Source: a virus. From it: a DNA stretch of 26,622 nucleotides. Where the stretch lies: positions 1 to 26,622 of the IMG/VR virus record IMGVR_UViG_3300030116_007829. One strand, 5' to 3'. A program made the translations under genes and the position numbers. How positions within the stretch are numbered: the stretch's first letter is position 1; each line of letters starts with the position of its first letter. Below, one piece after another: positions 8,766-26,475 of the stretch. The notes beneath the pieces were generated by a model. It had not been told where the DNA came from and searched no databases. It saw only the letters and a program-made list of their open reading frames with translations.

Positions 8766-10316
8766 TTAGAACTGTAATATAACTTTGATATCTTCTTTTT
8801 GGTTAGAAGAACGTGTGATTGCTGGTCGATGATCAATATAAAGCATGTTTCCAGAGTATTTTTTAACTTCTGGATTAGATAAACCACTTGTAAATGTTTG
8901 ACCAAGATAATATGTTTTATTATTTATCGAAGTTGATAGACCATCAAAACTTGTGTTTATACCAAGAGAAATACTTCCTCCTGTTATATTTACACTACCT
9001 CCATCAGAGATATCTGCGGTAAATCTATCAGCGTTAAATCCATAAATTGGAGTAGTTGTTGCTGCACCAACAGTTGTGAAACCAGCCATGGTGCGATCCT
9101 GCCAGTATTTTAAAACGCCTGTCACCTGATCATAACTAATGACTTTTCCAATCGCAGTCACACCTGTTCCTGTTGTTTGAGTGATAATACTATCAGCAGT
9201 AAATGTAGCACTACTATAACCTGTTCCTGTCAAACGCATTGCATATGCTGCACTTGCCTTATCCAACGTAAGGATTGCCGATGACCCAAAAGCTTTTGGA
9301 TTTTCAATAATACCAATTCTCGCTATTTGATTACCAGTGATAAAATCTGGATTTTCTGGATCATTTTCAATTCTAGAATATGTCAAAGCGTTTGTTGCAC
9401 CTAACTCCTTATAGATGTCTGCACCATGACCACCAGTTGGAGGTATGATAACATCGAGTTGAGGATATGAATCTGGTCTTGGCAAACCACCAGCAACGAT
9501 GTCAACTGTTCCAAAGGTATAACCTGATCCTTGATTTGTAACATCAACTGATCCAATTTGTTGATCTGCGTTTACAACAACTGTGCACTCAGCACCACTT
9601 CCATCACCTTTGATTGGAACTCTGGTATAAGTTCTATTTGCAGTTCCTAAACCCACACCACGATTTTGAATAATAACAACTTTTATTCCACCATCAACTG
9701 CATTATTTCTTACAGCAGCATTATCCGACCCAGTTTCCCAGTCTGATGGCACTGGTACAAATTCTGTAGAATCGAATTTTACTAACTCTGAAGGTTTAAC
9801 CGTATAAAGATATTTCCAGACATATCCATCACCACTTGTTCCAGCAACTTTTGGTTCTAAATCAGTAAATGTTGGTTCATCTAATGATGGTTTTCCATCC
9901 GGTTGCTCTGGGCTTGTTCCATTTTTTAAACAAATATAAACTCTAAAATCAGAGTTTATAACATAAAAATTAGATGAATATAACGAAGTTCCTTGTGCAT
10001 GTTTAGGTGGATTTGTGATACTATAATCTGATCTATAATAGTCATATGTAGTTCCAGAAGTCCAAGAATTTTTTCTTACAACTTGTTTTACGTCAGTTGC
10101 ATTTATCTTTTTTAATGCGATTGCAGTATCCCAAAAATCATTATGATTCGTAAAATTGTCAATTGGTGATGGGGGATCATCATCCCAATCTGTTTGTATT
10201 GCTGTAGGATCTGTTAATCCAACAAAAGAATAATATGAATTAGTAGACGTTGAAACCCCTGCAACAAAATTCTTTGCATTTAATATTCTTATCTGATCAG
10301 TAATTATAGCTGCCAT
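8766..10316 (-). CDS. 8: Baseplate wedge protein gp8, enlarged, 516 aa
   Basis: Homologue of T4 gp8, a dimeric component of the baseplate wedge that contacts the gp6/gp7 core and gp10. Matching landmarks are GDGYVWKYLY near residues 162-171 (T4: GDGYVWEYLF) and the C-terminal SGNMLYIDHRP (T4: SGEMIYMENRP), followed by an IKVILQF end (T4: INILFTF). The start MAAIITDQIRILNAKNFVAG matches my recollection of cyanophage gp8 N-termini. T4 gp8 has 334 residues; the extra length lies mainly between about 190 and 470. That section carries GSGYTFG and GTGYSS motifs of the kind repeated in the two giant neighbours. The gene follows the giant with a 19-base gap and has no Shine-Dalgarno motif. A near-consensus late promoter (CATAAATA) lies just upstream. 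Confidence 0.93.
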   Translation of the reverse strand: MAAIITDQIRILNAKNFVAGVSTSTNSYYSFVGLTDPTAIQTDWDDDPPSPIDNFTNHNDFWDTAIALKKINATDVKQVVRKNSWTSGTTYDYYRSDYSITNPPKHAQGTSLYSSNFYVINSDFRVYICLKNGTSPEQPDGKPSLDEPTFTDLEPKVAGTSGDGYVWKYLYTVKPSELVKFDSTEFVPVPSDWETGSDNAAVRNNAVDGGIKVVIIQNRGVGLGTANRTYTRVPIKGDGSGAECTVVVNADQQIGSVDVTNQGSGYTFGTVDIVAGGLPRPDSYPQLDVIIPPTGGHGADIYKELGATNALTYSRIENDPENPDFITGNQIARIGIIENPKAFGSSAILTLDKASAAYAMRLTGTGYSSATFTADSIITQTTGTGVTAIGKVISYDQVTGVLKYWQDRTMAGFTTVGAATTTPIYGFNADRFTADISDGGSVNITGGSISLGINTSFDGLSTSINNKTYYLGQTFTSGLSNPEVKKYSGNMLYIDHRPAITRSSNQKEDIKVILQF

Positions 10317-10332
10317 TTGAGATTTTTTTATT

Positions 10333-10340
10333 TATTTATG
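10333..10340 (-). promoter_or_regulatory. Candidate late promoter upstream of gp8 (CATAAATA)
   Basis: The minus strand reads CATAAATA, one mismatch from the T4 late consensus TATAAATA. It overlaps the stop codon of the giant gene and lies 17 bases before the gp8 ATG, in an AT-rich gap. If used, it would give a very short leader and partly uncouple gp8 and downstream genes from the giant. The gap's base composition makes a chance match possible. Confidence 0.4.
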
Positions 10341-13300
10341 TGGAATAACTTTGAGTTTTTAAAAATGCCTCTCTCTTAAGGATTGGCCCTGTCAGTATGC
10401 CTGTTACACCATTAGACGTATTGACTGGATATGAACGCACAGTGTTTCGATCACTTAGTTGTAATCTACCATAACTATAATCGCCAAAGTACATACTATG
10501 ACCTAATCCTGATAGACCATTAAGACTGTTAACACTAACTACAACCTGAGTAACGACTGTAGATCCGAATCCCATTGCATCAGTGGTAACACCTAAAGTG
10601 CGATGAGCGACACGATAAACATTATCAATATAAGTTGTACCAACACCCACAGCACTGCCATCAGTATTTAGTGATGTTAATCCATGACCTACATTTGAAT
10701 TACTTACTATGAAGAAGTCACCAACGTTTAATCCAGATGTAACGATTCCACTATTACCACCTGAACCTGATGCTCCTTGTGTGATATCAGAATCTCTAAG
10801 GAAAGAATCGGAGGGAATCACTAAATCAAATACTAATCCAGTCACAGCAACTCCAGCTAATGAGGTTGTTCCAATACCTGTTATGATACCATGATCTCCA
10901 GAGTATGATATAACTGTATTTTTCTCTTCAAGCACAGGATCAGCACCGATAAGCACAACTGGTGGATTTGCATCACTGTATTCTGTTCCAGCGGTTGAAA
11001 CGCTTATGCTTGTCACTACACCATTTGTTATTGATGCAGTTGCTTCTGCACGAGCAGTGGTTCCAAGACCAACAGGATTTTGAATAGTTACAGTTGGAGC
11101 ACTATCGTAACCCCTACCACCAGTTGAAATCGCTACAGATGATATTGTTCCAGCAGCGGATACAATTGCGGTTGCGGCAGCCGCTAATCTTTCAACGTTA
11201 TTAATAATTACTATATTTTTTTGAAACTCAGTTGATATTATATTTTCATTTTTAGCGTTAAAGAATGGTCTAACACCAGTAACATATGCAATCGTTGTAC
11301 CTACACCCACTGTTTGAATAAAGTTAGTGGTTGGTGTAATATTACCTTTGTATAAATCTCTATCTTTATAGATTTTCTTACCCTCAACAATTTTGTCTTC
11401 AGTTTGTTTTGTCCATACTATTGGTCTGTATACTCTTGTATCTTCAAAAACACCCGGGCCATCATAATTATTTGTATCAACTGAATTAGATGAAGTAATT
11501 TCAAGAACACTTCTTGACTGCTCTTGCAAGAAATTTTCCTGATTAAGTTTATTATGATATCCAAGGGTAAGATCATCTCCGACTTTGACAGTTTCAATTA
11601 TTTCTCTATCAATAACATCTGCACCACCTGTTCCTCGATAGAATATTATCTTCAAGGTATCTTCAAACTTGGGTGCCTCATCAAAAGTGATATTACTACC
11701 GCCGAGGAATGTGTAAGACTCTCCGGGTATTTGTAGTATATCATTAATGAACACAAATAAAGTATCTTGAACTGTAACTGGTGATCCCGGTGCTGCTTGG
11801 ATTGATAATGACTCTCCACCAACAGTAAGTGGAAATGTTCTTCTTGATCCGTCAAATAGATTTTGGAAAGTATCTAATACCTGTAGTTGTCCCACAGACC
11901 AACCACTAAATTGATCGCTTGCTACATCATTAACTGTAATTCTAAATTCTTGATTATCGACAAAATTAGGTGTTGTTGGAATACCAGCTGATCCTGTTAA
12001 TGATAGAGTAAGTATTTCACCCACACCATATCCATATCCAGTATTAGTGATCTTAAAGTCCATTACAGTAGATCCCTGACTTACAACAACATCTGCTCTT
12101 GCCTCAGAACCAGCAAATCCCGGAGATGATGTGCTATGAATCAATTGCATGTCACTATATGACAGTGGATCATCAATAACAATCTTAGTTAATTGATCAA
12201 CTCTACCACCTCTTGCATAAAGGTGAGCTCTCGTTGATACACCACTATTGATTTCAAACTCAGTTGCACTTAGGACTCTTATTACTGATGCACCATCAAA
12301 CGCAACGTCTTGACCACTTGGTGAATTATTATTCGCTCGTGGTGCGATTATTGCTGGTTGTATAAATCCACCAGAAACATATTGTGTTGGAACAGTGGAT
12401 ATACCAGCATTAATGGTAAATTGAGTTGCACTCGCAACACCAACCACTGGTGTTCCATCAAATATTGGATCACCCTCTCTTGGATATTTGTGTTGAGTTG
12501 CGTAGTTATTCTTTGAACATGTAAATCTTAAGGACTCTTTCTTCAGTTTAATACTTCTTCCGGGTAATAATGTGTGTGCACCTATAGTAAGGACTAATAC
12601 ACCTGTATCAGCAGCGTAAGTAGCGTCAGACACGTCATAGAAGTTTAATTCAGACTTACCGACGTTTATTGTAATTGTATTAGTGGTGACAGCAGTGATT
12701 GCAGTTTGAATACCAGCTATTGGATCAGTTGGTCTTGGATATGGATGATCACTTCCATAATGATCCATTTCGCATGAGAAGACAATTGAACTCGTACCAA
12801 TACCAACAGTATCATTTGTAGACAATCCATGACTAGGTATTGATATCACAAACACTCCAGTGGACGCATTATAAGTTGCGTTTGTTGGTGTAAACTGAGT
12901 TCCAACACCTGTTGTAACCGCGTTTGCAAGTGCATATCTGAATGTATGAGAATAATCTCCACCTTGTATAACAGCACTACTTGCAGCACCTATGAATCTG
13001 TGAGTATATTGTTGACCTATAGGAGATTTAGATACGTCTAAGGTTATAGTTGTTGCTGTGGTAGATGCAACTGATATTGCAGTATCAAAGAAACGATCTC
13101 TATTCCTTGGATAGATATGATTTACTGTTGCACCAAGTCCACATGTAAACGCTAAACCAGTTAATATTACATCACTACTCTTACCAGTTGTTGATAAACC
13201 ATGAGCAGCAAGTGTGGTTACAGTCATGATACCGGTGGTATTATCATAGTTTGCACTTTGAACTCCGACAGCTGGGGCGTAGTCACAAGTAAATGCGATA

Positions 13301-16300
13301 CCAGATACAACCACCTCATTACCAACAGATAGATTATGTGCAAATGCAGTGGTTATAGTTGTTATACCAGTGATTGAAGAATAACCAACATTGTAGATAT
13401 CTCTTGGTTTATAGAAGAATTGTGGATTAGTAATATCAATGCTAGTTACATGACCATCAGTAACGTTAGCAAGACCAATAGTTGTGATTCCAGATTGATC
13501 AAATCCCTCAGTTTGTAAACCTACAGATACAGTTTGTATACCTGATCTGTAACCAGAACCTGTGTTACCTATACTTACACTATTGATTGTTCCTGCAAGT
13601 GATACTACGGCAGTTCCACCAGCACTCACTAATGGTTGATATCCAAATCCACTTGTTGATGCAACAGATATAATTACACCACCAACAGGTATAGATGCAG
13701 TATTAACATCCCTAGCAACTGAACTTGCAGCTCCGGTAAATGTTAATGTTGTTCCGGATCCAACAGTTGTTAACTCAAAATCACCGACTGATCCTGACAA
13801 TGGTGCTTGTAATACACCATTAATTAATACAAGTGCATTATTTGTTGCGATACCAGTTTTTTGTGCTTTGTCTACAGTAAGTGCATATTGTCTATTCTTA
13901 CCGTTAAAATCTGATGTTAAGTCATCATATAGATGGTTTGTAGAATAAGTTTCTGTGCTTCCATTTACAATGCCGGATCGAGTAAACACTCTTCCTTGGA
14001 AACTTGAAGAAGTCGTGATACCAACAAAGTCTCTTTCATCGGGAGGATTAGTTGTTGATCCTATTGGATTTTTTCCCGGAGGTGCCTCTGAGAATGTTAT
14101 CTCATTTTCAAGAATATTATAATTACCTCTTATTTTTTCAACTAATGATCCTGTTGGGAATCCAGCGATTGATGTTCCCAATCTTTGTCTTCTTACTTTA
14201 ATACCATTAGTTGTTCCAATACCAACAGATAATATCTTCATCACTTCACTCGTATTACCACTACTTACACGAATATTATCTGCACCGAAGAAAGATGTTA
14301 TTCCTGAGAAATGTATAACATCTTGTGACTTATCAATTGATCTGTCAAGTGTGGTCGTTACAGAGGTTCCAGCAATTGGTGATTGAAGGAAATTATCAAT
14401 AGCAACTAATACTCTTGTGTTTGCATTTTTTGCTGTAAATGAGTGTGATGTTCCAATACCAACATGTGTCAAATCTAAAGGTACAGCCACCTCTTTTAAT
14501 GCATCTTGAGCACTTCTTGCTAATTGAACTTTATCCTCTCCTTTCTTGATTATGAAGAGAGAAGATGGTAACAACGTGGTTGTAATTCCAAGAGCAGGAA
14601 ATTCAGTGGATGCAATTTGTATGGCAGATGATATGCCAGTTCTTCTATCTGTGTGTGCATATGACACCTCTTCACCAGACACGAAGAAATGATTTGGAAG
14701 TGTGATTGTATTTGCAGTTACATTTACAACCTCAGATGTTGATCCATCATATGGTTTCTTAAATATGGGATCGCCATTATGCTCTAGAGCAAATTTTGTT
14801 TTAATCGCTGATTGTGTTCCTTCATAATTTGCAAAGGAACTTTCTATTGAAGCGTTTTGCAAATCCTTGTTAGCTTCACCACCAACTTCTCTGGTTGCAC
14901 CTGATGGTAATAATTCAGTATTTTCTTCAACTCTCAATGAATTTAAGAAAGTTGTAATTGAAACACCAATACCTGCATTTGGTACAAAAGTAATTTCAGT
15001 AACATTGTCTGATGTTCTTCTGCCACTTATAGTTCCAAGACCAGCAAATGCTGTACCAACTTTAATATTACCAAACTCAGTAAGATAAACATTATCATCA
15101 TCCGTATAATCATCAATTATTATTACTTCTGCTAATTCGTAACTTCCATTTAATTTATCGGCAATCTGAACAATACAGTAAGCAGCATCGTATGCATCAC
15201 CATAACTTGCAATACCAACTGCCACAGGTGTAGATGATGATGATATTCCTGTGCTTTGTGCGGACATCTCAGCATATGCCATATCATATGATCCGATTCC
15301 GATGTACCCCTCAGTTGCAATACCAATTGCAGTTGCGTTGATAAATGCTGTTGTTAATCCAGCATCGGGTGTGTATCTTACAACAAGATCATTTCCAACC
15401 ATTAATGGGAAGAATGTTCCTATGTTGCCTGTCGATGAATAAGCATCTGAGGAGTGAATCGTTAATTGACCATACTCTTGGAATCCAACGTTTGTCCCAT
15501 CATGTATAACACTCACCTGATCATACTCAACACTTCCATCACTACCTTCAACACTTACAAATAGTTTAGCTGATCTATGTCCAGAGACTGTTGTTCCAAT
15601 ACCAGCGAGTGTGAACACAGTTCCTGCAGCACCACCAGCAACAGAAACACATGTTGACTGAATACTTACAAGTGATCCATTCAATCCCTCAGATGTAGAT
15701 GGATCAAAAGGTTCAGCGGGTATAGATGTGGTCGCTGTTGCAACATTTGTTGTCGATACACCTAATTGATTTGTGTCTATTTGATATGACCATAATACAA
15801 CGTTATAATCATTAATTGTAAATTTATGTGGGAAAAATCTTAAGACAGATTCAACACCATCAATAACAAAATCAAATGATCCTAGATCCAAAGTAGTTTC
15901 AACAGATCCATATTGATTCATCATTGTTAAACCACGACCTGTATCATGAAGAGTGTTAATAATCATTATCTGCCTTTCACCAGTAAATAATCTATCTTGA
16001 ATATAAGCAACAAAGAATTGAGCACGACCATCAGCTAACCTATTACGATAAACATCAGCAAAAGGTGTGGATCTTGCATTATTATTAAACAAGTTACTAA
16101 AGTCATCTATAGTAACCACTCTATTAGATACTGACTCAGAGTAATCTTTTAAAATACGTGATTTAAAATTAAATTCATCTGAGAAAGGTCTTTCAAATCC
16201 AGTTATGTAATTTTCTGACACTAAGTCAAAATCATGGAATGATTGTAGACTTTCTTTTCCTATTATATCAATAAGTATCGTTGTTCCATCTACAGGTCTA

Positions 16301-19300
16301 ACCACTAAATCATCAGATTTTTCTTTGGGAAGTTGAGATTCAAGTTGAAAATTTGCAAACTTTTTAAATCCAGCTGTGTGGTTCAAAGTATTAACTATGT
16401 CTTTCCATTCATCAAACTGCACTTTAGATTTAACTGAGTATGAGAATGCGTGATAATAATCATTATCGTGAACACGTTGTTGTTCATCATTTAAAAATCC
16501 AGTTCTTCTCTGCCATCCATTATTGAATATTGAAAAATAATCTAAATTATATTTTGATTCAAATTTTATTTTTTCCTTTATGATTCCTTTTGCACCAGTT
16601 GGTGCTGTGTATTCGTTACCACTAATTCTCTCTCCTCTAAATTTTGTCTGTTCAATTATTTGTCCAACATTAAATTCTCTGTTACTCTCAACAGTTATGT
16701 ATTTACTAGAATTATTCCAATCAGAAACTGTGCCTTTAACGATAACTCCAGAACTATCAATTGTTTGAATGTCATCACCAATTCTAAAATCAGTTGGTTG
16801 TAATTTTGGATCAAATTGTGGGAAATATTTTTCGGGAACTAACGTACCATTTGATTTTTCAGCGTTAAATACTCCGGGAAACTCAATATTTTTCTCTAAA
16901 AATTCAGACATATTATAAGTAACAACTCCAAAACCACCATAATTAGGAGTAACACTCGTTAAAGTAAACAAAGCGTAATCATAATCGGAAGAATTATATC
17001 CTGAAGCTGTTGATCCTACACCAACACTCACATTTTCAACAAGAACTTTGTCACCAACACTTAATGGGAATGGATCAATATATTCACCATCATTATTTAA
17101 AACACCACTAAACGCATTTTTTAAAGTAACACTTACCTCTTGTGTACTATTGTTATATGTAAAGTTTTTAGTTCTAATACCATTAGGGTTGCCTATCGGT
17201 AATATTGTTGGAGTTGTATTGTTTAGAGATTCAGTATTTTCTAAAATTTCTACGATTTGCTCTTCAGGGTTGTATCTTAGGTCAACATCTGTGATAGGTT
17301 TTTTAGTTACACCGTCTAAAACAACTAAACTTGGGTTTTGAATATATCCGGTTCCAAACGATGTTATTCCTATTGATCTAAATCCACTAAGTGGTGATAT
17401 TCTTAAAGTTTGTGGATATAAAGCCTCAGGTTTTAAAGTTTTATCACTTGGATAATCAAACCCAATATTTTCTATGGTTATTTTGGTTGGTTTACCTATC
17501 GTTGATGAGAACGTCTCAATGACTGCTCCACTTCCTAAATCAGATGTGATCGTTGTAATTCCGGGGATATTTTTGTAACCACCACCGGGTTCGGTAATTG
17601 TTATTTCATTAATCGATCCATAAGCACTTGTTGATATCGTAGAGTATTTAAGTGTTGATGTTGTAGAAGAGTAAGAATCAGATTCTGGTTTAAATGGAAG
17701 ATCATATTGAAATGTTGTTGATCCTGTTGATATGATATTAAATATTCCACTATAACCACTCTCTGCTGTTGTTATATTATTGTGATTAATAACATCTTCA
17801 TCAATGACTATATCTTTATTTTCAGTTAAATTATCAGATACGTTGATAGGTGATAATTTATAATAAAGATTTTTTGGAGTATTTTCATTTATCTTCAATG
17901 TTACTTTTGCATCACCTGTAACTCCTATTGTGCCAGTTCTTGAAACATCAAATGTTGCATTTACACCACTTGTTTCATAACTATTGCTGTAATTGCTATC
18001 TTTGAAAAAATCAAAATAAAATGCAGGATAAGAAGTAGCACTCACTCTATAAGATAAAGATGAATCACTTAAATCAAATATTGCGTTTGAATTTTTAACA
18101 AATACGAATGGTGGATTTATTGGTGATATCGTACCATTACCAGTAGATGTTATACCTATAAATTCTGGAAAATCTTGACTCGTTTGATACTCCGTCTCTA
18201 CAAATTTTAAGGTATCCTTATCAACAACATATACGTAATATTCCCTATTATTCTCAAGACCTATAGGATCATCTGATGTGTGTATTATTTTATCACCTGT
18301 GACTAACTTATGATCGTTTATGATAATCGAGTCTCTTATACCATCGTCAGACTTATTTGTTGTAATACCTGATGCGACGTAATCTAAAGGATTAAATACA
18401 GCTTTGCGACGAATTTTATTATATTTTACAGTAATCGTGGTATTAATACCCGGATTTACATCCATGTAAACTAAATCATTATTTGTCAACCCATGAGTTC
18501 CTGTTCCAACCACAGTGACGGCATCTCTTGTAATATTTCCTGATATAATATCTCTATTTTTTAATCTTAAACTATGAATAGATCCTATACCAACGTCCAA
18601 AAATTGTATCTCTTCAAAGATAGGTTGAGTGCCTGTTAATCCCAGACCAAATCTCACACCAGTAGATCCTACTCCAACTTTAACGGTTGATAGTCCAATT
18701 AAATTATTTGTTTTTCTAATAACAAATAAAGATGTTCCAATTCCAACTGTTGTATCTACTGTTGGAGTTGCACTAAAGAATTTAACTTTAGGAGCAGTCT
18801 CTGAACCATTAACACCGTTCAATTCATAATTAACAATATCACCAGTTTGTAAAGTATGATTAGGTAGAAATATAGATCCCCTTGGAATAATTCTTGTAGT
18901 AACACCTGCTCCGGGATTATTAATGGTAATAGTATTACCTATGCCAGTTTCATTGTCTGGGTTGGAATGTGATGTTCCGATTGAATCACTAGGATTAAAG
19001 TATATTTCTATATCCTCTCTAAGCGGAATTAAAGGAGCATTAATTGGTTGAAGATTATTGACAGTTGATCTAAATGAAAATACTCTTGGAATTTCTTGAA
19101 GTATAGTTGATTGAGTGTGTGAAATCCCTACAAATTCAACTGGTCTTAAAACTCTTAATCTTTTTGAAAAACCATCAACATCTAAGACTTTTATAATTTC
19201 AGATGATACTCCAACTCTAAATCTATCATTTGTTCTTATTTCAGATAGATCACCACTTACTGGGAAGAAAGTCACAATACCGGTTGCAGTTGCTGTGCCT

Positions 19301-22300
19301 ATACCTTGAGTTAGAATTAGTCTTGTTGATGATATTCCTATCTCTTGAGGGCCAACCAAATCCTGCACAGTTGATGATAGTCCACCGACATTTACTAATC
19401 TAGCATTTTCTAAATTTATAGAAGTTGACGCGATGCCAACTATTAGATCTTCAGACTTCCTATAAAATTTGATTCCTAATATGGACTCATTAGATGAACT
19501 TACATTTAATATTGATCCATTTATTCTTGTTACTTTTGCTCTTGCTTGAAAAGCACTATCAATATTTTGATCAAATACTAATTTATCATTGACTTTATAA
19601 TTTGTTCCACCAGAGGTTATGCCAACAGAATTAATTCCACCTTTAGTTACAAAATCTATATTTGAATCTTGATTTACAAACTTATAAGACTCTAGGAAAT
19701 AATCATAACCACTAAAATCTTTATTAACCGATAATGGATAAGTGTTTCTTACCACATTTGTTTTGTTAATGTCAAAATCCTCTTGATTTGATAATCTGCT
19801 AAAATTAAATTTATTTGGTTTTGAATTATATTTGTCGCCGATCAAATATGGAAATTTAGGTTTTTTAAAGTTTTTAAAAATACCATCTGAAGCTGCGGTA
19901 GAGTCAAAGGTAGAAAAATAAGCGTAAACTCCATTTGGATATTCGGGTGTTATACAGAATCTTCCGTTATTTTCATCAAGAACTGAATCATCATTTGATA
20001 CTTTATAAGTGAAATCTTCTACAAAAAATTCTGGAGGAAATGAAGTAAAAGGAGGTCGATTAATTTTTTTACTACTCTCATCTACATACCCAGATTTCAT
20101 TTGAACAATATCACCACCATCTCTTCTTGAATATCCATAAGGCCCGTATATTGGGTTGCCATCATATGCCCATCCTATGATTGGTGAGTGTTGATCACTA
20201 TTACTTTCAACTCCGTTTATAAGACTTAAATCTTTCTTACCAAATAAAACAGTTCCGTCAGCAGCAGATGCGTATGATATTCTTCTTAGATTTCTAGCAG
20301 GATAAACATATGAACATTGAAGTCCAAATAATCTATTTGTTGGTTCACTTATGAATACATCATCATCATTTAAATTATTTAAATTTTTTCTAAAATTATT
20401 AATTCTCCATTTTTGCACTGAGGGTTTAAAATCTGCTCCTTTTCCTGATGAGTCAACTCTCACTGTGGTTGTTGTAACACCGTAACCGATTCCACTACTT
20501 TCAATATTTACAGATGTTATATTTCCTAAAGAATTAATTACGGGGGTAAGTTTTGCATCCGATCCTATTCCTAAAACAACTAGATCTGGTGGTGAGTTAT
20601 AGTCAGTTCCACCATAACTAACACTAACATCAACAATTTTTCCTTTTGAAATAATCGGTGTGATAACTGCATCTCTTCCGCTATTAAGATCAATTTTTGG
20701 AACTCTATCAAAATTAACTATCTCAGATGCACCATATCCAACTCCACTTCTCGTCAATTGAAGTGAAGTTATCTCTCCTCTAAAAATAGGTTGTAATGAT
20801 GCTTCAAATGTATTACCTGATATTGAGGATAATCCAACTCTACCGATTACCTCTACTGATATTGGAGGATAATTAAATGTGTGAGTGCCAACTCCAGTAT
20901 TTCTAAATTCGTTAAATTGATTAGTGTTAATGTAAAAAGAACTAACAGTTGTTCCAACTCCAACAGCTGCTAATTTAAATTGATCTTTATTAACAACAGA
21001 AACATAATATTGTTTATCTGTGGACAAACCGTCAATTGATGTTCCATCAACTGAGTAATTTACAATTTCACCAGTTTTATAATCATGATTTGGTATATTT
21101 ACGATATTCAGAGAAGTGTTAATTCCTGTTGATTCACAAGATCTTTGTTTATTTTCGTAACCAGACCCACTGTCTAAAACGACAACTGAACTTACTATTG
21201 ATTTTCCGTTTAATGATTTAAAAGATTGTACTCCACTACCAAAAGCTGTAAACGATATCGTATTTACTCCAGCGATTGCTTCATCATAACTATTATGTAA
21301 TTGCACCGTATATTCTGATACAGAAGATACGTGGTAAATTGCTTCAGTAACCAACCCTACAATCGGAGTGCTCCCCAGAGGGTCATATACGACTCTCTCA
21401 CCCTGTCTAAATCGATGATAGGTAGTAAATCCTATGGAGGATGTATTTATTCCTGCTGTGTCTAATATTATGGTTCCAAGACCAACACCATCACCATTTA
21501 TTAATAATTCATGATTAATTTTATTAAGTTTCGCAACTGCTGTTGCACCTTTACCATTTCCTCCACTTATTTTTATAATTGGTTCTTCTACATAATCGAA
21601 ACCACTATCAATTATCCTTAAATCTTGTAAAGACCCTCTAACAGCAGCGATAGCTGTAGCTCCACTTCCAATAGAGTCATTAATTTCAATTCTTGGTGGA
21701 TTAATAACGTCATAGTTTTCACCATTTTTTACAACATTTATATCTTCCAAACGTCCGTGATATACAAATTCTTTAGACTTATAATTTAATACTTCAACTC
21801 CATCAACCAACACTCCAGTATATCCGGGACTTGTTGATACTTTTTCAGAGACGTTTATTGGTAGTGAAATCTCTCTAACCAACTTTTGTGGTTCAATAAC
21901 CTTGCCATTAAAATTATATTTTTCAATATCATTAAATGCAATTGTAACAGAATCAACTCCTCCATCGGGTTTTACTTTAGTAAACACACCCTCATAAATA
22001 TCTGATTGACTTTTTGCAAACTTTACTGTATTTGCATCGATTCTTTTTATATAATATAAACCTTCAGCAAATAATCTACTAATAATATATTCTTGTCTTA
22101 TTGTATTACCCTCAGAGTCAATTGTGCTTACTTGACCTTTTTGAGGGGTATAATATACTGCATCACCTGTAAAGAAATTATGATCAACTTGATCTGATAT
22201 TTTAATATCTTCATCATCTTTGTCATAAGTCCCACCAAAAGTTAATTTTTGAGTTTTTGGGTTTAACTTACTAACACCACTAAAAGGTAATGATGAAGAT

Positions 22301-24138
22301 GTAACATAAATTTTGTTTTGTCCTTCAATAGGTGTTATTGTTTCATGAAATTCAGATATATGTTTTTCTCCGACCATTTGTGTTCCTTTAGAAGGATGTT
22401 CATGTGATGGCCCATAGTATGGTACACCGTTTACCAATCCACCATCAGGTTTAAGGTAAATATTTTGAATATTAGCAGTAAACTTATTTAAATTTGGATG
22501 TATATCAGAATTTACTTTTGAAATTCTTTTGCTTACTTTTGTAACTTTTGTAGGATCACTTATTCCACTTCCCTTAATTAAACATGTATTATTATCAAAA
22601 ACATCAGTAACAACATATATTTTATTTGATGCTGGTTCAAATGATGAGGTGAATTCATCACCCCATTGGGTTCCCCCCGCTAAAGTTTCATGAGTTGTGA
22701 CATTATCACCGATTCTAAGAACGTTTGTGTCTTTAGTAACTAATTTAAAAGTATTATTGATTCCATCCACAATGGAAAGCGATTTAACAACATAACTTTG
22801 AGCTGTATTAAACAACCAATTGTTTTCTTTAACATTTTGACCAATTTGTCCTAAATTTTTTATTTTTACCTTTGATCCAACTTTTTGATTATTAATATTT
22901 GGTGAAATAATTAAATCATTTAAAACACCACGAATTTTTACTCGTATCTCCTTATCCCCTTCATCATCAAACGCATACGCAAAAGTATTTTGATCAATTG
23001 ATGTATTATCAGCAATCGATGTAGTAATTCCAGTTGTATTAATTCCTAAAAATTGATTTACAGTTTTTTCTGAATATGTGCAAACACCTAGTGTTCCATT
23101 TTCATACAAAAATGATAAAGTTCCAGAATTTGGAAATCCAAGAGTGGAGTCAACATCAATATATGTTTGTGCGATACTAACTTGACCTATAATTTTAGTT
23201 TTAGGATGAAAAGAAAAATCACCATATGTTAAACCTGTCGTTCCGTCAGGAATAGTTTGTCCATCATCAAAACTCAATTTATAAAATGTGTTAGTATTAA
23301 CACCAACTGGTATTTTTTGAACAAATCCAACAGAAGCATAAGCTTTTGGTATGTTTTCAAAATTATCTTGATATAATGTTCTGTTTACAAGATCTTCTGG
23401 ATCACCAATGTACGGTTCAACTATAAAATCTTTTGTTTTTTGAAAAATTGCATTAGAAGGTGATATAACATCATCAATCGGACGAATAACATCTACTTTT
23501 TCCCCATATAGTGCTCCAAATAATATATTAAAAGACTCATCTGTACCTCTTGTCGAGTAAAAATCTTTTGACTGACGAATAAATTGTGGTTTATTAAGTT
23601 TTTCGTCTAAATCTTTTTGAAATCCATACAAAAACTGATTTTTTGCTTTTTTTAAAAACTCATCAAGAAATAAAACGCTTAAATTTTCAACTTTAGTATT
23701 GTTTTCATGATTTTGAGCGACAGAAGTTGAAAAAACAAGATTCTCAGAATCATTAGGGTTACGAAAAGATGTTATTCCACTAAAACCTCTCTTGCAATTT
23801 ACAAAACTTATATCAGTCTTACTTTCATATGTAATAATTTCATCATTTATCTTGATTAGACCATAATTATCAGGAAATCCAGTTGTATTTGAAACAAATA
23901 TTGTTGCGGTTGATATTCCAGCAGCTGTTGTTGTATTTGTTGATTTTATTAAATTTCCACACTCACTTAATTTGATATAGGAGTCTATATTTTGAATTAA
24001 ATCGACAGGCCCGCCTTTATATTCTTGTCCCTGATAATATTGAGATAGAAAATTCCCGACCAAAGGAAAATCCTCTTGAACATAAGAGGGTAATTGGCTT
24101 TTAACAATCTGATTTAACTGAACTCTCTTTTCGGACAT
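10336..24138 (-). CDS. Giant modular baseplate/tail protein in the gene 7 position, 4600 aa
   Basis: One uninterrupted frame of 13.8 kb. The N-terminal section (MSEKRVQLNQIVKSQLPSYV) leads to FYSTRGTDESFNILFGALYG at about 191-212, resembling a motif of phage tail proteins. Other landmarks are six H-x5-(T/S)GD ... YYV modules between about 650 and 3215; a YHYH-like domain near 1277-1438; RRTGFLNDEQQRVHD and DYYHAFSYSVKS near 2540-2575, which I recall from other marine phage giants; two tandem beta-domains (about 2817-3078); Cys/HxYPR repeats (3597-3977); and a FxGSRRTFPLTV / INDILQIPGE module near 4096-4171. About 14 GxGY motifs and many VGIGT motifs occur throughout. It lies between gp6 and gp8, where T4 has gp7 (1032 aa), the partner of gp6. 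Functional equivalence to gp7 is inferred from position, not shown by sequence. The start is three bases after the gp6 stop with no Shine-Dalgarno motif. Confidence 0.87.
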   Translation of the reverse strand: MSEKRVQLNQIVKSQLPSYVQEDFPLVGNFLSQYYQGQEYKGGPVDLIQNIDSYIKLSECGNLIKSTNTTTAAGISTATIFVSNTTGFPDNYGLIKINDEIITYESKTDISFVNCKRGFSGITSFRNPNDSENLVFSTSVAQNHENNTKVENLSVLFLDEFLKKAKNQFLYGFQKDLDEKLNKPQFIRQSKDFYSTRGTDESFNILFGALYGEKVDVIRPIDDVISPSNAIFQKTKDFIVEPYIGDPEDLVNRTLYQDNFENIPKAYASVGFVQKIPVGVNTNTFYKLSFDDGQTIPDGTTGLTYGDFSFHPKTKIIGQVSIAQTYIDVDSTLGFPNSGTLSFLYENGTLGVCTYSEKTVNQFLGINTTGITTSIADNTSIDQNTFAYAFDDEGDKEIRVKIRGVLNDLIISPNINNQKVGSKVKIKNLGQIGQNVKENNWLFNTAQSYVVKSLSIVDGINNTFKLVTKDTNVLRIGDNVTTHETLAGGTQWGDEFTSSFEPASNKIYVVTDVFDNNTCLIKGSGISDPTKVTKVSKRISKVNSDIHPNLNKFTANIQNIYLKPDGGLVNGVPYYGPSHEHPSKGTQMVGEKHISEFHETITPIEGQNKIYVTSSSLPFSGVSKLNPKTQKLTFGGTYDKDDEDIKISDQVDHNFFTGDAVYYTPQKGQVSTIDSEGNTIRQEYIISRLFAEGLYYIKRIDANTVKFAKSQSDIYEGVFTKVKPDGGVDSVTIAFNDIEKYNFNGKVIEPQKLVREISLPINVSEKVSTSPGYTGVLVDGVEVLNYKSKEFVYHGRLEDINVVKNGENYDVINPPRIEINDSIGSGATAIAAVRGSLQDLRIIDSGFDYVEEPIIKISGGNGKGATAVAKLNKINHELLINGDGVGLGTIILDTAGINTSSIGFTTYHRFRQGERVVYDPLGSTPIVGLVTEAIYHVSSVSEYTVQLHNSYDEAIAGVNTISFTAFGSGVQSFKSLNGKSIVSSVVVLDSGSGYENKQRSCESTGINTSLNIVNIPNHDYKTGEIVNYSVDGTSIDGLSTDKQYYVSVVNKDQFKLAAVGVGTTVSSFYINTNQFNEFRNTGVGTHTFNYPPISVEVIGRVGLSSISGNTFEASLQPIFRGEITSLQLTRSGVGYGASEIVNFDRVPKIDLNSGRDAVITPIISKGKIVDVSVSYGGTDYNSPPDLVVLGIGSDAKLTPVINSLGNITSVNIESSGIGYGVTTTTVRVDSSGKGADFKPSVQKWRINNFRKNLNNLNDDDVFISEPTNRLFGLQCSYVYPARNLRRISYASAADGTVLFGKKDLSLINGVESNSDQHSPIIGWAYDGNPIYGPYGYSRRDGGDIVQMKSGYVDESSKKINRPPFTSFPPEFFVEDFTYKVSNDDSVLDENNGRFCITPEYPNGVYAYFSTFDSTAASDGIFKNFKKPKFPYLIGDKYNSKPNKFNFSRLSNQEDFDINKTNVVRNTYPLSVNKDFSGYDYFLESYKFVNQDSNIDFVTKGGINSVGITSGGTNYKVNDKLVFDQNIDSAFQARAKVTRINGSILNVSSSNESILGIKFYRKSEDLIVGIASTSINLENARLVNVGGLSSTVQDLVGPQEIGISSTRLILTQGIGTATATGIVTFFPVSGDLSEIRTNDRFRVGVSSEIIKVLDVDGFSKRLRVLRPVEFVGISHTQSTILQEIPRVFSFRSTVNNLQPINAPLIPLREDIEIYFNPSDSIGTSHSNPDNETGIGNTITINNPGAGVTTRIIPRGSIFLPNHTLQTGDIVNYELNGVNGSETAPKVKFFSATPTVDTTVGIGTSLFVIRKTNNLIGLSTVKVGVGSTGVRFGLGLTGTQPIFEEIQFLDVGIGSIHSLRLKNRDIISGNITRDAVTVVGTGTHGLTNNDLVYMDVNPGINTTITVKYNKIRRKAVFNPLDYVASGITTNKSDDGIRDSIIINDHKLVTGDKIIHTSDDPIGLENNREYYVYVVDKDTLKFVETEYQTSQDFPEFIGITSTGNGTISPINPPFVFVKNSNAIFDLSDSSLSYRVSATSYPAFYFDFFKDSNYSNSYETSGVNATFDVSRTGTIGVTGDAKVTLKINENTPKNLYYKLSPINVSDNLTENKDIVIDEDVINHNNITTAESGYSGIFNIISTGSTTFQYDLPFKPESDSYSSTTSTLKYSTISTSAYGSINEITITEPGGGYKNIPGITTITSDLGSGAVIETFSSTIGKPTKITIENIGFDYPSDKTLKPEALYPQTLRISPLSGFRSIGITSFGTGYIQNPSLVVLDGVTKKPITDVDLRYNPEEQIVEILENTESLNNTTPTILPIGNPNGIRTKNFTYNNSTQEVSVTLKNAFSGVLNNDGEYIDPFPLSVGDKVLVENVSVGVGSTASGYNSSDYDYALFTLTSVTPNYGGFGVVTYNMSEFLEKNIEFPGVFNAEKSNGTLVPEKYFPQFDPKLQPTDFRIGDDIQTIDSSGVIVKGTVSDWNNSSKYITVESNREFNVGQIIEQTKFRGERISGNEYTAPTGAKGIIKEKIKFESKYNLDYFSIFNNGWQRRTGFLNDEQQRVHDNDYYHAFSYSVKSKVQFDEWKDIVNTLNHTAGFKKFANFQLESQLPKEKSDDLVVRPVDGTTILIDIIGKESLQSFHDFDLVSENYITGFERPFSDEFNFKSRILKDYSESVSNRVVTIDDFSNLFNNNARSTPFADVYRNRLADGRAQFFVAYIQDRLFTGERQIMIINTLHDTGRGLTMMNQYGSVETTLDLGSFDFVIDGVESVLRFFPHKFTINDYNVVLWSYQIDTNQLGVSTTNVATATTSIPAEPFDPSTSEGLNGSLVSIQSTCVSVAGGAAGTVFTLAGIGTTVSGHRSAKLFVSVEGSDGSVEYDQVSVIHDGTNVGFQEYGQLTIHSSDAYSSTGNIGTFFPLMVGNDLVVRYTPDAGLTTAFINATAIGIATEGYIGIGSYDMAYAEMSAQSTGISSSSTPVAVGIASYGDAYDAAYCIVQIADKLNGSYELAEVIIIDDYTDDDNVYLTEFGNIKVGTAFAGLGTISGRRTSDNVTEITFVPNAGIGVSITTFLNSLRVEENTELLPSGATREVGGEANKDLQNASIESSFANYEGTQSAIKTKFALEHNGDPIFKKPYDGSTSEVVNVTANTITLPNHFFVSGEEVSYAHTDRRTGISSAIQIASTEFPALGITTTLLPSSLFIIKKGEDKVQLARSAQDALKEVAVPLDLTHVGIGTSHSFTAKNANTRVLVAIDNFLQSPIAGTSVTTTLDRSIDKSQDVIHFSGITSFFGADNIRVSSGNTSEVMKILSVGIGTTNGIKVRRQRLGTSIAGFPTGSLVEKIRGNYNILENEITFSEAPPGKNPIGSTTNPPDERDFVGITTSSSFQGRVFTRSGIVNGSTETYSTNHLYDDLTSDFNGKNRQYALTVDKAQKTGIATNNALVLINGVLQAPLSGSVGDFELTTVGSGTTLTFTGAASSVARDVNTASIPVGGVIISVASTSGFGYQPLVSAGGTAVVSLAGTINSVSIGNTGSGYRSGIQTVSVGLQTEGFDQSGITTIGLANVTDGHVTSIDITNPQFFYKPRDIYNVGYSSITGITTITTAFAHNLSVGNEVVVSGIAFTCDYAPAVGVQSANYDNTTGIMTVTTLAAHGLSTTGKSSDVILTGLAFTCGLGATVNHIYPRNRDRFFDTAISVASTTATTITLDVSKSPIGQQYTHRFIGAASSAVIQGGDYSHTFRYALANAVTTGVGTQFTPTNATYNASTGVFVISIPSHGLSTNDTVGIGTSSIVFSCEMDHYGSDHPYPRPTDPIAGIQTAITAVTTNTITINVGKSELNFYDVSDATYAADTGVLVLTIGAHTLLPGRSIKLKKESLRFTCSKNNYATQHKYPREGDPIFDGTPVVGVASATQFTINAGISTVPTQYVSGGFIQPAIIAPRANNNSPSGQDVAFDGASVIRVLSATEFEINSGVSTRAHLYARGGRVDQLTKIVIDDPLSYSDMQLIHSTSSPGFAGSEARADVVVSQGSTVMDFKITNTGYGYGVGEILTLSLTGSAGIPTTPNFVDNQEFRITVNDVASDQFSGWSVGQLQVLDTFQNLFDGSRRTFPLTVGGESLSIQAAPGSPVTVQDTLFVFINDILQIPGESYTFLGGSNITFDEAPKFEDTLKIIFYRGTGGADVIDREIIETVKVGDDLTLGYHNKLNQENFLQEQSRSVLEITSSNSVDTNNYDGPGVFEDTRVYRPIVWTKQTEDKIVEGKKIYKDRDLYKGNITPTTNFIQTVGVGTTIAYVTGVRPFFNAKNENIISTEFQKNIVIINNVERLAAAATAIVSAAGTISSVAISTGGRGYDSAPTVTIQNPVGLGTTARAEATASITNGVVTSISVSTAGTEYSDANPPVVLIGADPVLEEKNTVISYSGDHGIITGIGTTSLAGVAVTGLVFDLVIPSDSFLRDSDITQGASGSGGNSGIVTSGLNVGDFFIVSNSNVGHGLTSLNTDGSAVGVGTTYIDNVYRVAHRTLGVTTDAMGFGSTVVTQVVVSVNSLNGLSGLGHSMYFGDYSYGRLQLSDRNTVRSYPVNTSNGVTGILTGPILKREAFLKTQSYST
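11625..11850 (-). other. Fibre-type module (FDGSRRTFPLTV ... INDILQIPGE) in the giant protein
   Basis: Residues about 4096-4171 contain FDGSRRTFPLTVGG, then LFVFINDILQIPGESY and ITFDEAPKFEDTLKIIFY. I recall this arrangement as recurrent in tail and fibre proteins of marine phages. A diverged second copy (FNGKNRQYALTV ... LVLINGVLQAP ... LTFTGAA) lies at roughly residues 3403-3470 (about 13720-13930). Function is unknown; a repeated beta-domain of a fibre-like shaft is inference. Confidence 0.65.
12207..13350 (-). repeat. Cys / H-x-YPR protein repeats in the giant
   Basis: Residues about 3597-3977 hold successive units of the form YxxxTGxxxxTxxxHxL...(F)xFxCxxD/N...HxYPRxxDP...VxxxTxTxxTINVG. 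Three good units carry NHIYPRNRDR, DHPYPRPTDP and QHKYPREGDP. A preceding unit has FTCDYAP without the YPR part, and a trailing partial unit ends in HLYARGG. Each main unit pairs one Cys with a His 6-11 residues later. I recall similar units in other marine phage structural proteins. Confidence 0.75.
14905..15690 (-). repeat. Two tandem related beta-domains in the giant
   Basis: Unit 1 (about residues 2817-2962) contains KLFVSVEGSDGSVEYDQVSV, then IHDGTNVGFQEYGQLTI and VVRYTPDAGLTTAFINA. Unit 2 (about 2963-3078) contains YCIVQIADKLNGSYELAEV, then IIDDYTDDDNVYLTEFGNI and ITFVPNAGIGVSITTFLNSL. The shared order is a strand with (N)GS/YE, a DD/HDG turn, a TEFGNI-like strand and an FTPNA-like ending. 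This indicates an ancient internal duplication with strong divergence. Confidence 0.7.
19830..20310 (-). other. YHYH-like domain within the giant protein
   Basis: Residues about 1277-1438. It contains IIGWAYDGNPIYGPYGYS near 1322, then LDENNGRFCITPEYPNGVYA near 1385-1405 and FPYLIGDKY at the end. The GxAYDGxPIYGPYGY and (L)DExNGRxxxTPEYPxGxYxYx patterns are those of the YHYH family. The eponymous YHYH motif appears here as YAYF, so both histidines are absent. The family's function is unknown to me; a structural or surface-binding role is inference. Confidence 0.75.
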
Positions 24139-24141
24139 CTT

Positions 24142-26073
24142 TTACCGTATGATGTTTCCATTTTTGTAACTTGTTGTTACAGTATATGTTGAACCTGATG
24201 GGTCAGCACCAGAACTGATTTCATCTACAACCATGTCAACAAAACTACTATCTAATTGTAAGTAAAGATCTTGCAATCCAATAATATCATTTGATTCTGG
24301 AGTGGCTGATATCTCCAAAATGTCAACATTGTCTTTTGTTTTACCTGATACTATATTTATGGGGTCTAAAGTAATGCGACCTTTCTTATAATCTATCACT
24401 CCAATATTTCTTCTTTGAATAGTTGGTGTTGAAGATCCTTCATTCAAAGAAAATAATAAAATTTGTCCTTTTTCTGCTGTGGCATCTGGAATATCAGATA
24501 AGTAAACATCTGTGTTAATATTTAACACTCGAAAAGCACTTGAACGAATGTTAAAACCATTCATCGATTTAACATGAAACTGATTTCCAAAATCTATTGC
24601 ATATTCAGCTACCTGAGACGTGGCCAATCTAAGATCTCTTCGCATTTCAACAGTAGTAATGTTAGATGTAACTGACTCATGACTTGAATCAATTACTTTT
24701 AGAAATTGACTATATTTAAATCTCGCTCCATATCTATTTAATTGAGATGATTCAGCGTAAGATGTTAAATCTCTCTGTACTTTTGTTGAGACAAATGATG
24801 CGCTTGGTGCTAGATTTGTGTTATAATATACTTTGCTATTTGTTTCGATAAACAAATACTTTAAATCAAGTATTTCTGGCACGATTCCCGCGACAGCATA
24901 TCTTTTAAGATTTCTTTTTATATTTTCTTTAATTAAATTTGGTACAAAGTCACCATTTCGGGGTTTAATACTTATAAAAACTTTTCCATATTGTGGGGGT
25001 ACAAGTTCTTCACCTCCAAATACCGAAATTGACTCTGTTTCTGGATAAATTTTATTTGGAATTAATATTTCATAATCATTTGCACTTAAAGCTCTATTTT
25101 GAGTCGCATAAACTTGTGGTGCAAACTTACGAATTGACTCCACGCTCTCAATACTTTCACCACCACTTGATGGTAGTGCTGATGAAATCAGAGAAATGCC
25201 ATTTGTAACAAAAATTTCAACTGAATTTCTTACATAAGATACACTTCCAGTGAAAGTAAAACTATTAACACCATTTCCATCTGACCCATTTGTTACAATA
25301 TATGACATTTCAACAATATTTCCATCTTGAAGTTCTTTTCCAAAGATTCCATCCCCAAAAATTACTTCGTATTGCTCTCCTTCAACCTCTTGAATGAAAT
25401 AAATGTTTGAATTTCCAGTAATTGTTGATTTTGTAACAACATCAAATAGTTCATCTTGTCGTGTATACTTAGATGTTAATGAAGAATCAATTGAAGGACG
25501 CACACTAACGACTAAACTGTCTAAATCAATACCAACATTTGGTAAAATAAACTTTTGAAATGGATTTCGAGTTGAATAAACGTATGATTGACTTAAATAT
25601 GAACCTTCGTACACCTCAATATTATCAAAACTAGCAATTCCGTCAATTACAGACACTGTAATATCTTCTGGAATACCAAAAATAAAGGATTGTCCATTAA
25701 ATCGACCACCAGTAGTTGCTACAGGCCCTGCTTTGAGTGTTAAATTTGATGGTGTTGGTGAAACTGATGAAATATCAACGAAAAAACTGATCGATGCTCT
25801 TGAAGATTTCTTTGATCGAGGTATATAACCGATATTTCTTGCTAATGAAACTACATTTTCACGCAAAGTTGCTGAATCGATGAAAACTTCATTCGATATC
25901 ATGTTTGCATTATAAGATGTAATGTAAGTATTGTATGCTAATACATCTAAAATTGTCGAGAGGTTAGATCCTTCAAAATCATAGTCAGTAAAATCTGAAT
26001 TACTTTGAATGTAATCTTTTAGTGATTGTTTAATCTGGTCAAAATCCAGATTTGTAAAGTTTATGAGTGACAT
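24142..26073 (-). CDS. 6: Baseplate wedge protein gp6 (Baseplate_J-like), 643 aa
   Basis: Homologue of T4 gp6 (660 aa), whose dimer with gp7 forms the core of each baseplate wedge and joins neighbouring wedges into the inner ring. The N-terminal motif DFTDYDFEGSNLSTILDVLA followed by YNT (residues 28-49) matches T4 EFLDYDFEGSRLNVLCDLLAYNT. Also conserved are the ATLRENVVSLARNIGYIPRS section, a TNGSDGNG motif near 261-267 (T4: TNGADANG), and a central EIIP/YLFIETN region equivalent to T4 ITPSIISPNYLFIKTN. Length is near that of T4. The ATG directly follows the gp25 stop with no spacer and no Shine-Dalgarno motif, so it is probably coupled to gp25. No truncation or frameshift is seen. Confidence 0.95.
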   Translation of the reverse strand: MSLINFTNLDFDQIKQSLKDYIQSNSDFTDYDFEGSNLSTILDVLAYNTYITSYNANMISNEVFIDSATLRENVVSLARNIGYIPRSKKSSRASISFFVDISSVSPTPSNLTLKAGPVATTGGRFNGQSFIFGIPEDITVSVIDGIASFDNIEVYEGSYLSQSYVYSTRNPFQKFILPNVGIDLDSLVVSVRPSIDSSLTSKYTRQDELFDVVTKSTITGNSNIYFIQEVEGEQYEVIFGDGIFGKELQDGNIVEMSYIVTNGSDGNGVNSFTFTGSVSYVRNSVEIFVTNGISLISSALPSSGGESIESVESIRKFAPQVYATQNRALSANDYEILIPNKIYPETESISVFGGEELVPPQYGKVFISIKPRNGDFVPNLIKENIKRNLKRYAVAGIVPEILDLKYLFIETNSKVYYNTNLAPSASFVSTKVQRDLTSYAESSQLNRYGARFKYSQFLKVIDSSHESVTSNITTVEMRRDLRLATSQVAEYAIDFGNQFHVKSMNGFNIRSSAFRVLNINTDVYLSDIPDATAEKGQILLFSLNEGSSTPTIQRRNIGVIDYKKGRITLDPINIVSGKTKDNVDILEISATPESNDIIGLQDLYLQLDSSFVDMVVDEISSGADPSGSTYTVTTSYKNGNIIR

Positions 26074-26475
26074 TTATCGAGTTGGCAATAGCACGAATTC
26101 TAATTGTTGGGGTGGTACATCAATTCCCGTAACTTCATATTGAATCACCACGTTCATTTCGTTGTCATCAGGGTTTGGATTTACCGAAACATTTAACAAA
26201 TTCACTCTTGGTTCAAAATTTATGATTGAACTTCTAATTTCATCCTCAATTGCAAGCGCAGATACATCATCTACATTCTCAAAAAGCGATTCTGAGATTC
26301 GAGAACCAAAATCTGGATTAAAAAACTTCTCTCCGGGTTGTGTAAATACGATATTTTTCAATGAACGAGCAATTGCATTCGTATTTTTAAGCCCAATAAG
26401 ATCATCATTCAAGGGATTAGTCTTAAATGACATACTTAAGTCCTTAAATTTTCTACTTATTCGCTCTTGAGGCAT
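26074..26475 (-). CDS. 25: Baseplate wedge protein gp25 (lysozyme-like fold family), 133 aa
   Basis: GPW/gp25-family protein, a small component of the wedge core close to the tail-tube base, where sheath assembly begins. T4 gp25 has 132 residues. Conserved landmarks are FFNPDFGSRISESLFEN (about 51-67; T4 FDPEFGCDLSDQLFEN) and NFEPRV with the signature EPR at 88-90 (T4 NYEPRI). The listed start at 26473-26475 keeps the RISRKFKDLSMSF stretch, which I recall as conserved in cyanophage gp25, but has no Shine-Dalgarno motif. An internal ATG (codon 15, at 26431-26433) follows AAGGA with seven-base spacing and is the main alternative, giving 119 aa. The gene lies just downstream of the late promoter and abuts gp6. 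Confidence 0.94.
   Translation of the reverse strand: MPQERISRKFKDLSMSFKTNPLNDDLIGLKNTNAIARSLKNIVFTQPGEKFFNPDFGSRISESLFENVDDVSALAIEDEIRSSIINFEPRVNLLNVSVNPNPDDNEMNVVIQYEVTGIDVPPQQLEFVLLPTR
26441..26445 (-). promoter_or_regulatory. Shine-Dalgarno motif (AAGGA) before codon 15 of gp25
   Basis: On the minus strand AAGGA is followed by seven bases and an in-frame ATG at 26431-26433, which begins MSFKTNPLND. The upstream ATG has no such motif. This raises the possibility of an alternative shorter gp25, or of both starts being used. Family conservation upstream of codon 15 argues for the longer form. Confidence 0.45.

Follow-up and report, generated by a model that had tools for sequence, protein, structure and literature searches.

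The 4600-residue protein encoded between gp6 and gp8 in our contig is very probably the orthologue of T4 gp7, with its conserved core split by inserts and followed by a C-terminal tail. The window (the whole stretch of DNA that was analysed, 26,622 bases) is a genome fragment, deposited in IMG/VR as a single metagenomic viral contig with a GC content of 34%. The gene is present as originally described, as a single open reading frame in the gene 7 slot at positions 10336–24138 on the minus strand, with an ATG start, 4600 codons, zero internal stops and a predicted product of 497 kDa. An open frame of this length is far from plausible as a product of chance. The size given in the original prediction, about 4.5 times that of T4 gp7, is borne out because T4 gp7 consists of 1032 residues. 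The same prediction had placed the protein between clear homologues of gp6 and gp8, and both neighbours indeed score over the Pfam cut-off and have PHROG matches. The gene neighbourhood, in order along the minus strand, is as follows:

26074–26475, minus strand: gp25 (PF04965), beyond gp6
24142–26073, minus strand: gp6 (PF21379 over cut-off; phrog_219, 615 bits)
10336–24138, minus strand: whole gene of the very probable gp7 orthologue (4600 aa), between gp6 and gp8
8766–10316, minus strand: gp8 (PF09215 over cut-off; phrog_438, 533 bits)
753–8759, minus strand: VrlC/DUF4815 protein (2668 aa), beyond gp8, a separate protein which coexists with gp7
114–539, minus strand: protein of 141 residues at the end of the contig, similar to phrog_3304 'L-shaped tail fiber protein assembly'

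Marine Synechococcus and Prochlorococcus are hosts to T4-like phages that occur throughout the ocean. The order gp25-gp6-[slot]-gp8 in the window matches that of cyanophages, the T4 order being gp6-gp7-gp8. The gp6 of the record is closest to that of Synechococcus phage S-SM2 (64.5%), and the fragment therefore belongs to a cyanophage-type T4-like phage (Kyanoviridae). A gene named like the phrog_3304 product comes after VrlC in S-SM2 and P-TIM68.

The protein in the slot is giant in every cyanophage examined, with lengths of 4156 aa in S-SM2 (YP_004322253), 4307 in P-TIM68, 5195 in P-SSM2, 4446 in P-HM1, ~6395 in S-RIM8, 4225 in ACG-2014f and 3032 in S-CAM1. Slot proteins of marine cyanophages belong to PHROG 2885/701/4406. 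Our protein matches phrog_2885 'baseplate wedge subunit' with 3266 bits, and is also matched by PHROGs 701 and 4406, which are catalogued as 'head and packaging'. Database records name the slot proteins of S-SM2, P-SSM2 and P-HM1 (4156–5195 residues) gp7, while other records use baseplate wedge subunit, initiator or merely 'structural protein'. The giant slot protein is already annotated as gp7 in close relatives, so its identity is ordinary and its size is what is remarkable.

The original prediction had left two alternatives, namely a gp7 enlarged by inserted modules or a different protein in its place. Our analysis supports the former, since three core blocks (A1, A2 and B) are found in the order in which their counterparts occur in T4 gp7 (~644–690, ~724–758 and ~865–891, respectively). 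Replacement by a different protein was not borne out, as these gp7 core blocks have profile support in the slot protein. The two segments which had been singled out for inspection, residues 1–300 and ~2480–2700, coincide with the split gp7 core. Features of the protein, from its N-terminus and with approximate boundaries for A2 and B, are listed below:

23968–24138, minus strand: core block A1, residues 1–57, LPSYVQEDFPLVGNFLSQYY; N-terminal helices, counterpart of the T4 gp7 core-bundle helices ~644–690
23692–23967, minus strand: insert 1, residues 58–149, a beta module; a gap against compact relatives, also in other cyanophage gp7s
23377–23691, minus strand: core block A2, residues 150–254, DFYSTRGTDESFNILFGALYGEKVDVIRP; A2 HMM E 4e-38, counterpart T4 gp7 724–758
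23197–23433, minus strand: first part of a domain V-like beta domain, residues 236–314; from hhalign with compact relatives and an HMM alignment with T4-type gp7 727–827
22987–23208, minus strand: beta-barrel module, residues 311–384, resembling barrels of phage tail tubes, tail tips and tailspikes
16762–23187, minus strand: insert 2, residues ~318–2459, a long series of beta-rich modules separating A2 from B, from the spacer comparison
19894–20205, minus strand: YHYH domain, residues 1312–1415 (PF14240, E 6.6e-20)
16549–16761, minus strand: second domain V-like stretch, residues ~2460–2530, leading back into the core; hhalign to compact relatives
16321–16518, minus strand: core block B, residues 2541–2606, DNDYYHAFSYSVKSKVQFDEWKDIVNTLNHTAGFKKF; B HMM E 5e-31, counterpart T4 gp7 865–891
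10339–16266, minus strand: C-terminal tail, residues ~2625–4600, an accretion after the core, from the tail-length comparison
12397–13260, minus strand: three tandem FTC/YPRxxDP modules, residues 3627–3914, from the module HMM

Block A2 carries the consensus ..DFYStkGte.S..fLF..Ly.e.v.i.. and is homologous to T4 gp7 724–758, and block B, with the consensus ..YY..SY.vkS.l....w.d.v...vHp.GF.., follows it and is homologous to T4 gp7 865–891. The same motifs follow one another in T4 gp7 itself, with YDFYSTKGIEASYKFLFKVLYNEEVEI within 724–758 and then YYVMKIKSNLPSSRWKSDVIRFVHPVGF at ~862–889. BLAST against small gp7-like proteins (phiN3, Cr30, OC, YB07 and HTVC008M) returned collinear blocks at residues ~1–57, 150–250 and 2540–2605. 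HMMs for A2 and B from which all T4-type sequences had been kept out match seven of seven T4-type gp7s (A2, E ~1e-8 to 1e-9) and five of the seven (B, E 1e-3 to 9e-3). Against T4-family gp7, cyanophage-only profiles reach E 1.1e-7 with a score of 66 (profile A) and E 1.6e-4 with a score of 39 (profile B), whereas the maxima over 60 column shuffles of each profile are 26 and 24, and the reversed profiles give 16 and 14, respectively. When a profile of the window family covering residues 1–440 was compared with all PDB sequences, T4 gp7 (6.7e-8) and KP1 gp7 (2.1e-7) were recovered, and beyond T4-type gp7 there was noise only, from E 0.1. Toxin chains at E ~0.1, aligned over one helix (residues 147–179), are chance matches.

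Direct similarity to T4 gp7 is short, with BLAST aligning ~32 residues at 47% identity (E 4e-4 in the panel), and the remainder of the comparison leans on profiles and intermediates. A phmmer search of the PDB with the whole 4600-residue protein gave chance matches only (best E 0.11), and profiles are therefore needed. The T4-specific Pfam gp7 models (helical, domain V and domain VI) have no match in the protein, and PF23786 stays below its cut-off (22.3 vs 27 bits). No counterpart of T4 gp7 residues 1–640 or of domain VI was found in the protein. We take these parts as non-defining because gp17 of Vibrio phage XM1 is accepted as an orthologue without them. Block B is the weakest link to T4.

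The gap between the giant protein and T4 gp7 is bridged by compact relatives, which were found by an IMG/VR search with the 631-aa gp7 of phage OC (L088–L093 and others). These proteins contain A1, A2, the domain V-like domain and B in succession within ~300 residues. In hhalign comparisons with the compact family, residues 4–314 of the window protein align at E 9e-23 and residues ~2460–2613 at E 3.8e-16, while the compact family aligns with T4 gp7 635–882 (profile columns) over 242 columns at E 6e-12.

Structure models, which are of moderate quality, agree with this picture, and the core is predicted to fold like T4 gp7. Fold similarity to gp7, for which the original prediction had looked to structure prediction, was found both in a compact relative, where it is strong, and in window residues 1–440, where it is weak. 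The model of the compact member L088 (pLDDT 65, pTM ~0.4) has as its top three Foldseek matches KP1 gp7 (1.4e-8), T4 gp7 5IV5 (1.3e-7) and T4 gp7 5HX2 (3.5e-6). Its VIA Z is 10.8 to 5IV5 and 10.7 to KP1, against ~6 for unrelated barrels; the VIA rmsd is 16–24 A, and the relative placement of the parts is therefore not reliable. The model of window residues 1–440 (pLDDT 70, pTM ~0.4) matches the compact core in the order of its helices and strands, with A1 helices at 8–15, 18–23 and 25–38 and a beta module (66–152) between A1 and A2. Its best Foldseek match is T4 gp7 (E 1.8e-3, prob 0.41), and its VIA Z to gp7 of 7.4–7.9 is below the level that stands out. Judging from the sequence, the helices of A1 are probably homologous to those by which gp7 links two gp6 chains in the core bundle.

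The inserts and the tail consist largely of beta modules which are common to other cyanophage gp7s, some of them also to tail fibres. Insert 1 carries the motif TTGFP..G..I..EIITY..RGFSG, the TTGFP/RGFSG beta module comprising residues 64–128. The barrel near the start of insert 2 superimposes with an overall rmsd of 1.8–2.2 A over ~70 residues on barrels of tail tubes, tail tips and tailspikes (VIA-align to 9n71_A: Z 10.5, rmsd 1.8 over 72 aa; to tailspike 4ru4_B: Z 8.2, rmsd 1.9 over 70 aa). All eight giant cyanophage gp7s that were tested have the YHYH domain, as does S-CREM2; the model of the domain matches neither T4-type gp7 nor any short gp7 of the target set. The FTC module HMM finds three copies in the window protein, ten in P-SSM2, six in P-HM1 and none in S-SM2 or P-TIM68; Syn1, S-RIM32 and S-WAM2 also have the module, in proteins whose annotation is tail fibre or short tail fibre. 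The FTC...H.YPR..DP sequence has a conserved Cys/Asp/His pattern, and it is a guess that this pattern binds metal. BLAST self-comparison of the 4600-residue protein detected no internal repeat under E 0.05, module profiles being the more sensitive method.

In a comparison of 25 close IMG/VR relatives, the first half of the C-tail (residues 2650–3650) is ~92% conserved vs ~77% for insert 2 (residues 250–2640), with a step at ~2650 and dips at residues 251–300, 1501–1750 and 2601–2650. The step may reflect recombination or a different constraint. We also considered hypervariability of the receptor-binder type for insert 2 and for the C-tail, and rejected it, the C-tail being the most conserved part and insert 2, the less conserved one, lying at the level given above.

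Comparison of spacer lengths reveals how the core has grown. Between A2 and B there are 71–99 residues in compact relatives, 107 in T4 and 151–414 in most mid-sized proteins, with 72 in OC, 494 in HTVC008M, 529 in Cr30, 782 in phiN3 and 1627 in S-CREM2; the giant cyanophage proteins have 1764–2688, and the window protein has 2287. The tail after B is 12 aa long in phiN3 and S-CREM2, 30 in Cr30, 1994 in the window protein and 2665 in P-SSM2. In the window protein, a chain of ~2,100–2,300 added residues pulls a small core apart and the tail adds ~2,000 more, and this combination of split core and tail is the same in the other marine cyanophages examined. Because domain V-like sequence flanks insert 2 on both sides, the insert opens inside or beside that domain. 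Its opening was perhaps accompanied by a duplication of domain V, as the two flanking sequences would suggest.

It is also possible, though rather unlikely, that the added mass came from fusion of the gp7 core with formerly separate genes, an origin which is compatible with the identity of the protein as gp7. The C-tail and some of insert 2 would then derive from genes for peripheral baseplate or tail-fibre proteins, and not from modules duplicated inside gp7. The occurrence of the C-tail's FTC modules in the annotated tail-fibre proteins of Syn1, S-RIM32 and S-WAM2 is consistent with such an origin. S-CREM2 gp7 points the same way, as it stops directly after B and the tail is therefore separable. 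However, FTC copy number differs within gp7 itself (3, 10, 6 and 0), and the domain V-like sequence on either side of insert 2 fits growth in place. Fusion and in-place growth may both be true for different parts of the protein.

T4 has six copies of gp7, each a monomer, which contact gp6, gp8, gp9 and gp10 (PMC3004832). In the 242-residue orthologue of phage XM1, N-terminal helices join two gp16 (gp6-like) chains, and tail spikes attach at its two flexible parts (PMC10457771). ORF122 of S-CREM2 (1937 aa) has been identified in the virion by mass spectrometry with 91 unique peptides and 27% coverage (PMC10665884). Our profiles find both A2 (E 9e-23) and B (E 7e-21) in it.

By extension from T4 and XM1, one copy of the giant gp7 would be present per wedge and would pair with a gp6 dimer as a (gp6)2-gp7 heterotrimer. 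Blocks A1, A2 and B would pack with the two gp6 chains in the core bundle and the trifurcation, insert 2 would loop out of the core at domain V, and the tail would branch off after B. Loop and tail might form the outer part of each wedge, mounting host-contacting arms or acting as such arms, which is the most speculative of these steps. Host binding by gp7 modules is a guess. With six copies assumed, giant gp7 would amount to ~3.0 MDa, and the very large appendages which the original prediction derived from that number are likewise conjectural. The outer place of the wedge is held in T4 by gp9-gp10-gp11. Among the complete relatives, gp11 was undetectable in nine of nine by profile (absence by profile is not proof), and the N-terminal domain of gp9/gp10 was over cut-off in two of the nine, P-TIM68 and S-RIM8 only. 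Therefore, the outer baseplate must be built differently, and giant gp7 and VrlC are the obvious candidates for it. We tentatively propose that giant gp7 took over the outer baseplate from T4 gp9/gp10/gp11, domain V having opened and the loop and tail having become fibre mounts and host-contacting arms, and regard this as possible rather than probable.

A protein of this size might alternatively be a polyprotein which is cut at assembly into distinct mature products, with the gp7 core parted from the arms. Apart from size alone, the prohead protease encoded by T4-like phages speaks for such processing. However, the core itself is split across the chain, so that a cut inside insert 2 would put A and B on different chains; moreover, no evidence of cleavage was found, the 27% peptide coverage of the S-CREM2 homologue being undecisive. 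We consider processing of this kind very improbable.

Our assignment of the slot protein as gp7 does not agree with a 2020 study of pelagimyophages, which stated that cyano- and pelagimyophages lack T4 gp7 and that VrlC apparently takes its place (PMC7029224). If so, VrlC would do the job of gp7 and the 4600-residue protein would be an unrelated structural protein, and the weak direct BLAST match to T4 gp7 could be read in the same sense. However, A2 and B occur in T4 order with profile scores far above those of shuffles, and in the window VrlC there is no A2 match and the best B match is not credible (E 1.4, chance level). DUF4815 is present in nine of nine non-T4 genomes, each time alongside an A2/B protein, and this coexistence means that VrlC is not a gp7 substitute. 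When the T4 gp7 profile was searched in six frames of complete genomes (E<=10), the slot protein was its sole match in six of seven cyanophages (S-SM2, P-TIM68, P-SSM2, P-HM1, S-RIM8 and ACG-2014f) and likewise in phiN3. A gp7 elsewhere in the genome, which the original prediction had named as a refuting observation, was seen in none of these complete relatives. The profile gave no match at this threshold in S-CAM1 or HTVC008M, and homology there therefore rests on A2/B and the compact relatives. Replacement by VrlC is thereby largely refuted, and the chance that gp7 has been replaced is slight. The window VrlC contains an extremely basic stretch at residues 1724–1823 (3291–3590, minus strand), with a net charge of +46 per 100 residues, which is RG- and KR-rich and resembles a nucleic-acid-binding tail. 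Elsewhere, the maximum charge of VrlC is +5 to +7 per 100 residues in S-SM2, P-TIM68 and HTVC008M, and P-HM1 VrlC reaches +20 per 100 residues at another location.

The record is one metagenomic contig, but an assembly artefact or spurious reading frame is excluded for practical purposes by dozens of independent contigs which encode the same protein (46–87% identity over residues 1–300) and by cultured phages which have its homologue in the same slot.

New here are the anatomy of the split core, the series of spacer lengths and a correction to the claim that gp7 is missing (PMC7029224), the slot protein being a split-core gp7 and not a replacement. No description of the split core appears to exist in the openly accessible literature searched, and no solved baseplate structure of a T4-like cyanophage was found there. 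For structural work, residues 1–314 and 2460–2606 are those to be docked next to gp6, and it is the added ~4,000 residues (~90% of the chain) that must explain how the baseplate differs from that of T4. With spacers ranging from 71 to 2,688 residues, gp7 lends itself well to the study of how a structural core grows through insertions.

Compared with known systems, the window protein shares with T4 gp7 (1032 aa; 5IV5, 5HX2) the order of A1, A2, domain V and B as well as the position between gp6 and gp8. The two differ in where the extra mass lies: T4 gp7 has ~640 residues before A1 at its N-terminus and domain VI after the core, neither of which was detected in the window protein, whereas the latter has inserts in the core and a tail. 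XM1 gp17 (242 aa; PMC10457771) is a minimal gp7, about twenty-fold smaller than the window protein, and its flexible parts, which carry attachments, would correspond to the growth sites of the window protein by analogy. The gp7s of phiN3 (1006 aa), Caulobacter phage Cr30 (767 aa), Ochrobactrum phage OC (631 aa) and Pelagibacter phage HTVC008M (1016 aa) contain A2 and B with short or intermediate spacers, and have neither a giant insert nor a YHYH match. The HTVC008M orthologue (L011:33435-36485) bears the database name 'head closure Hc2', which it probably owes to a GxGY beta module that also occurs in that PHROG. VrlC/DUF4815 is also a giant protein of the baseplate region, adjacent to gp7, but is without the gp7 core blocks. 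Closest to the window protein is the slot protein of S-SM2, which has the same slot, split core and YHYH domain, although it is, like that of P-TIM68, without FTC modules. Identity to S-SM2 is 41% over residues 1–3531 and 43% over residues 3986–4598, and between these two regions the window protein has ~455 residues (3531–3986), containing the three FTC modules, where S-SM2 has ~144.
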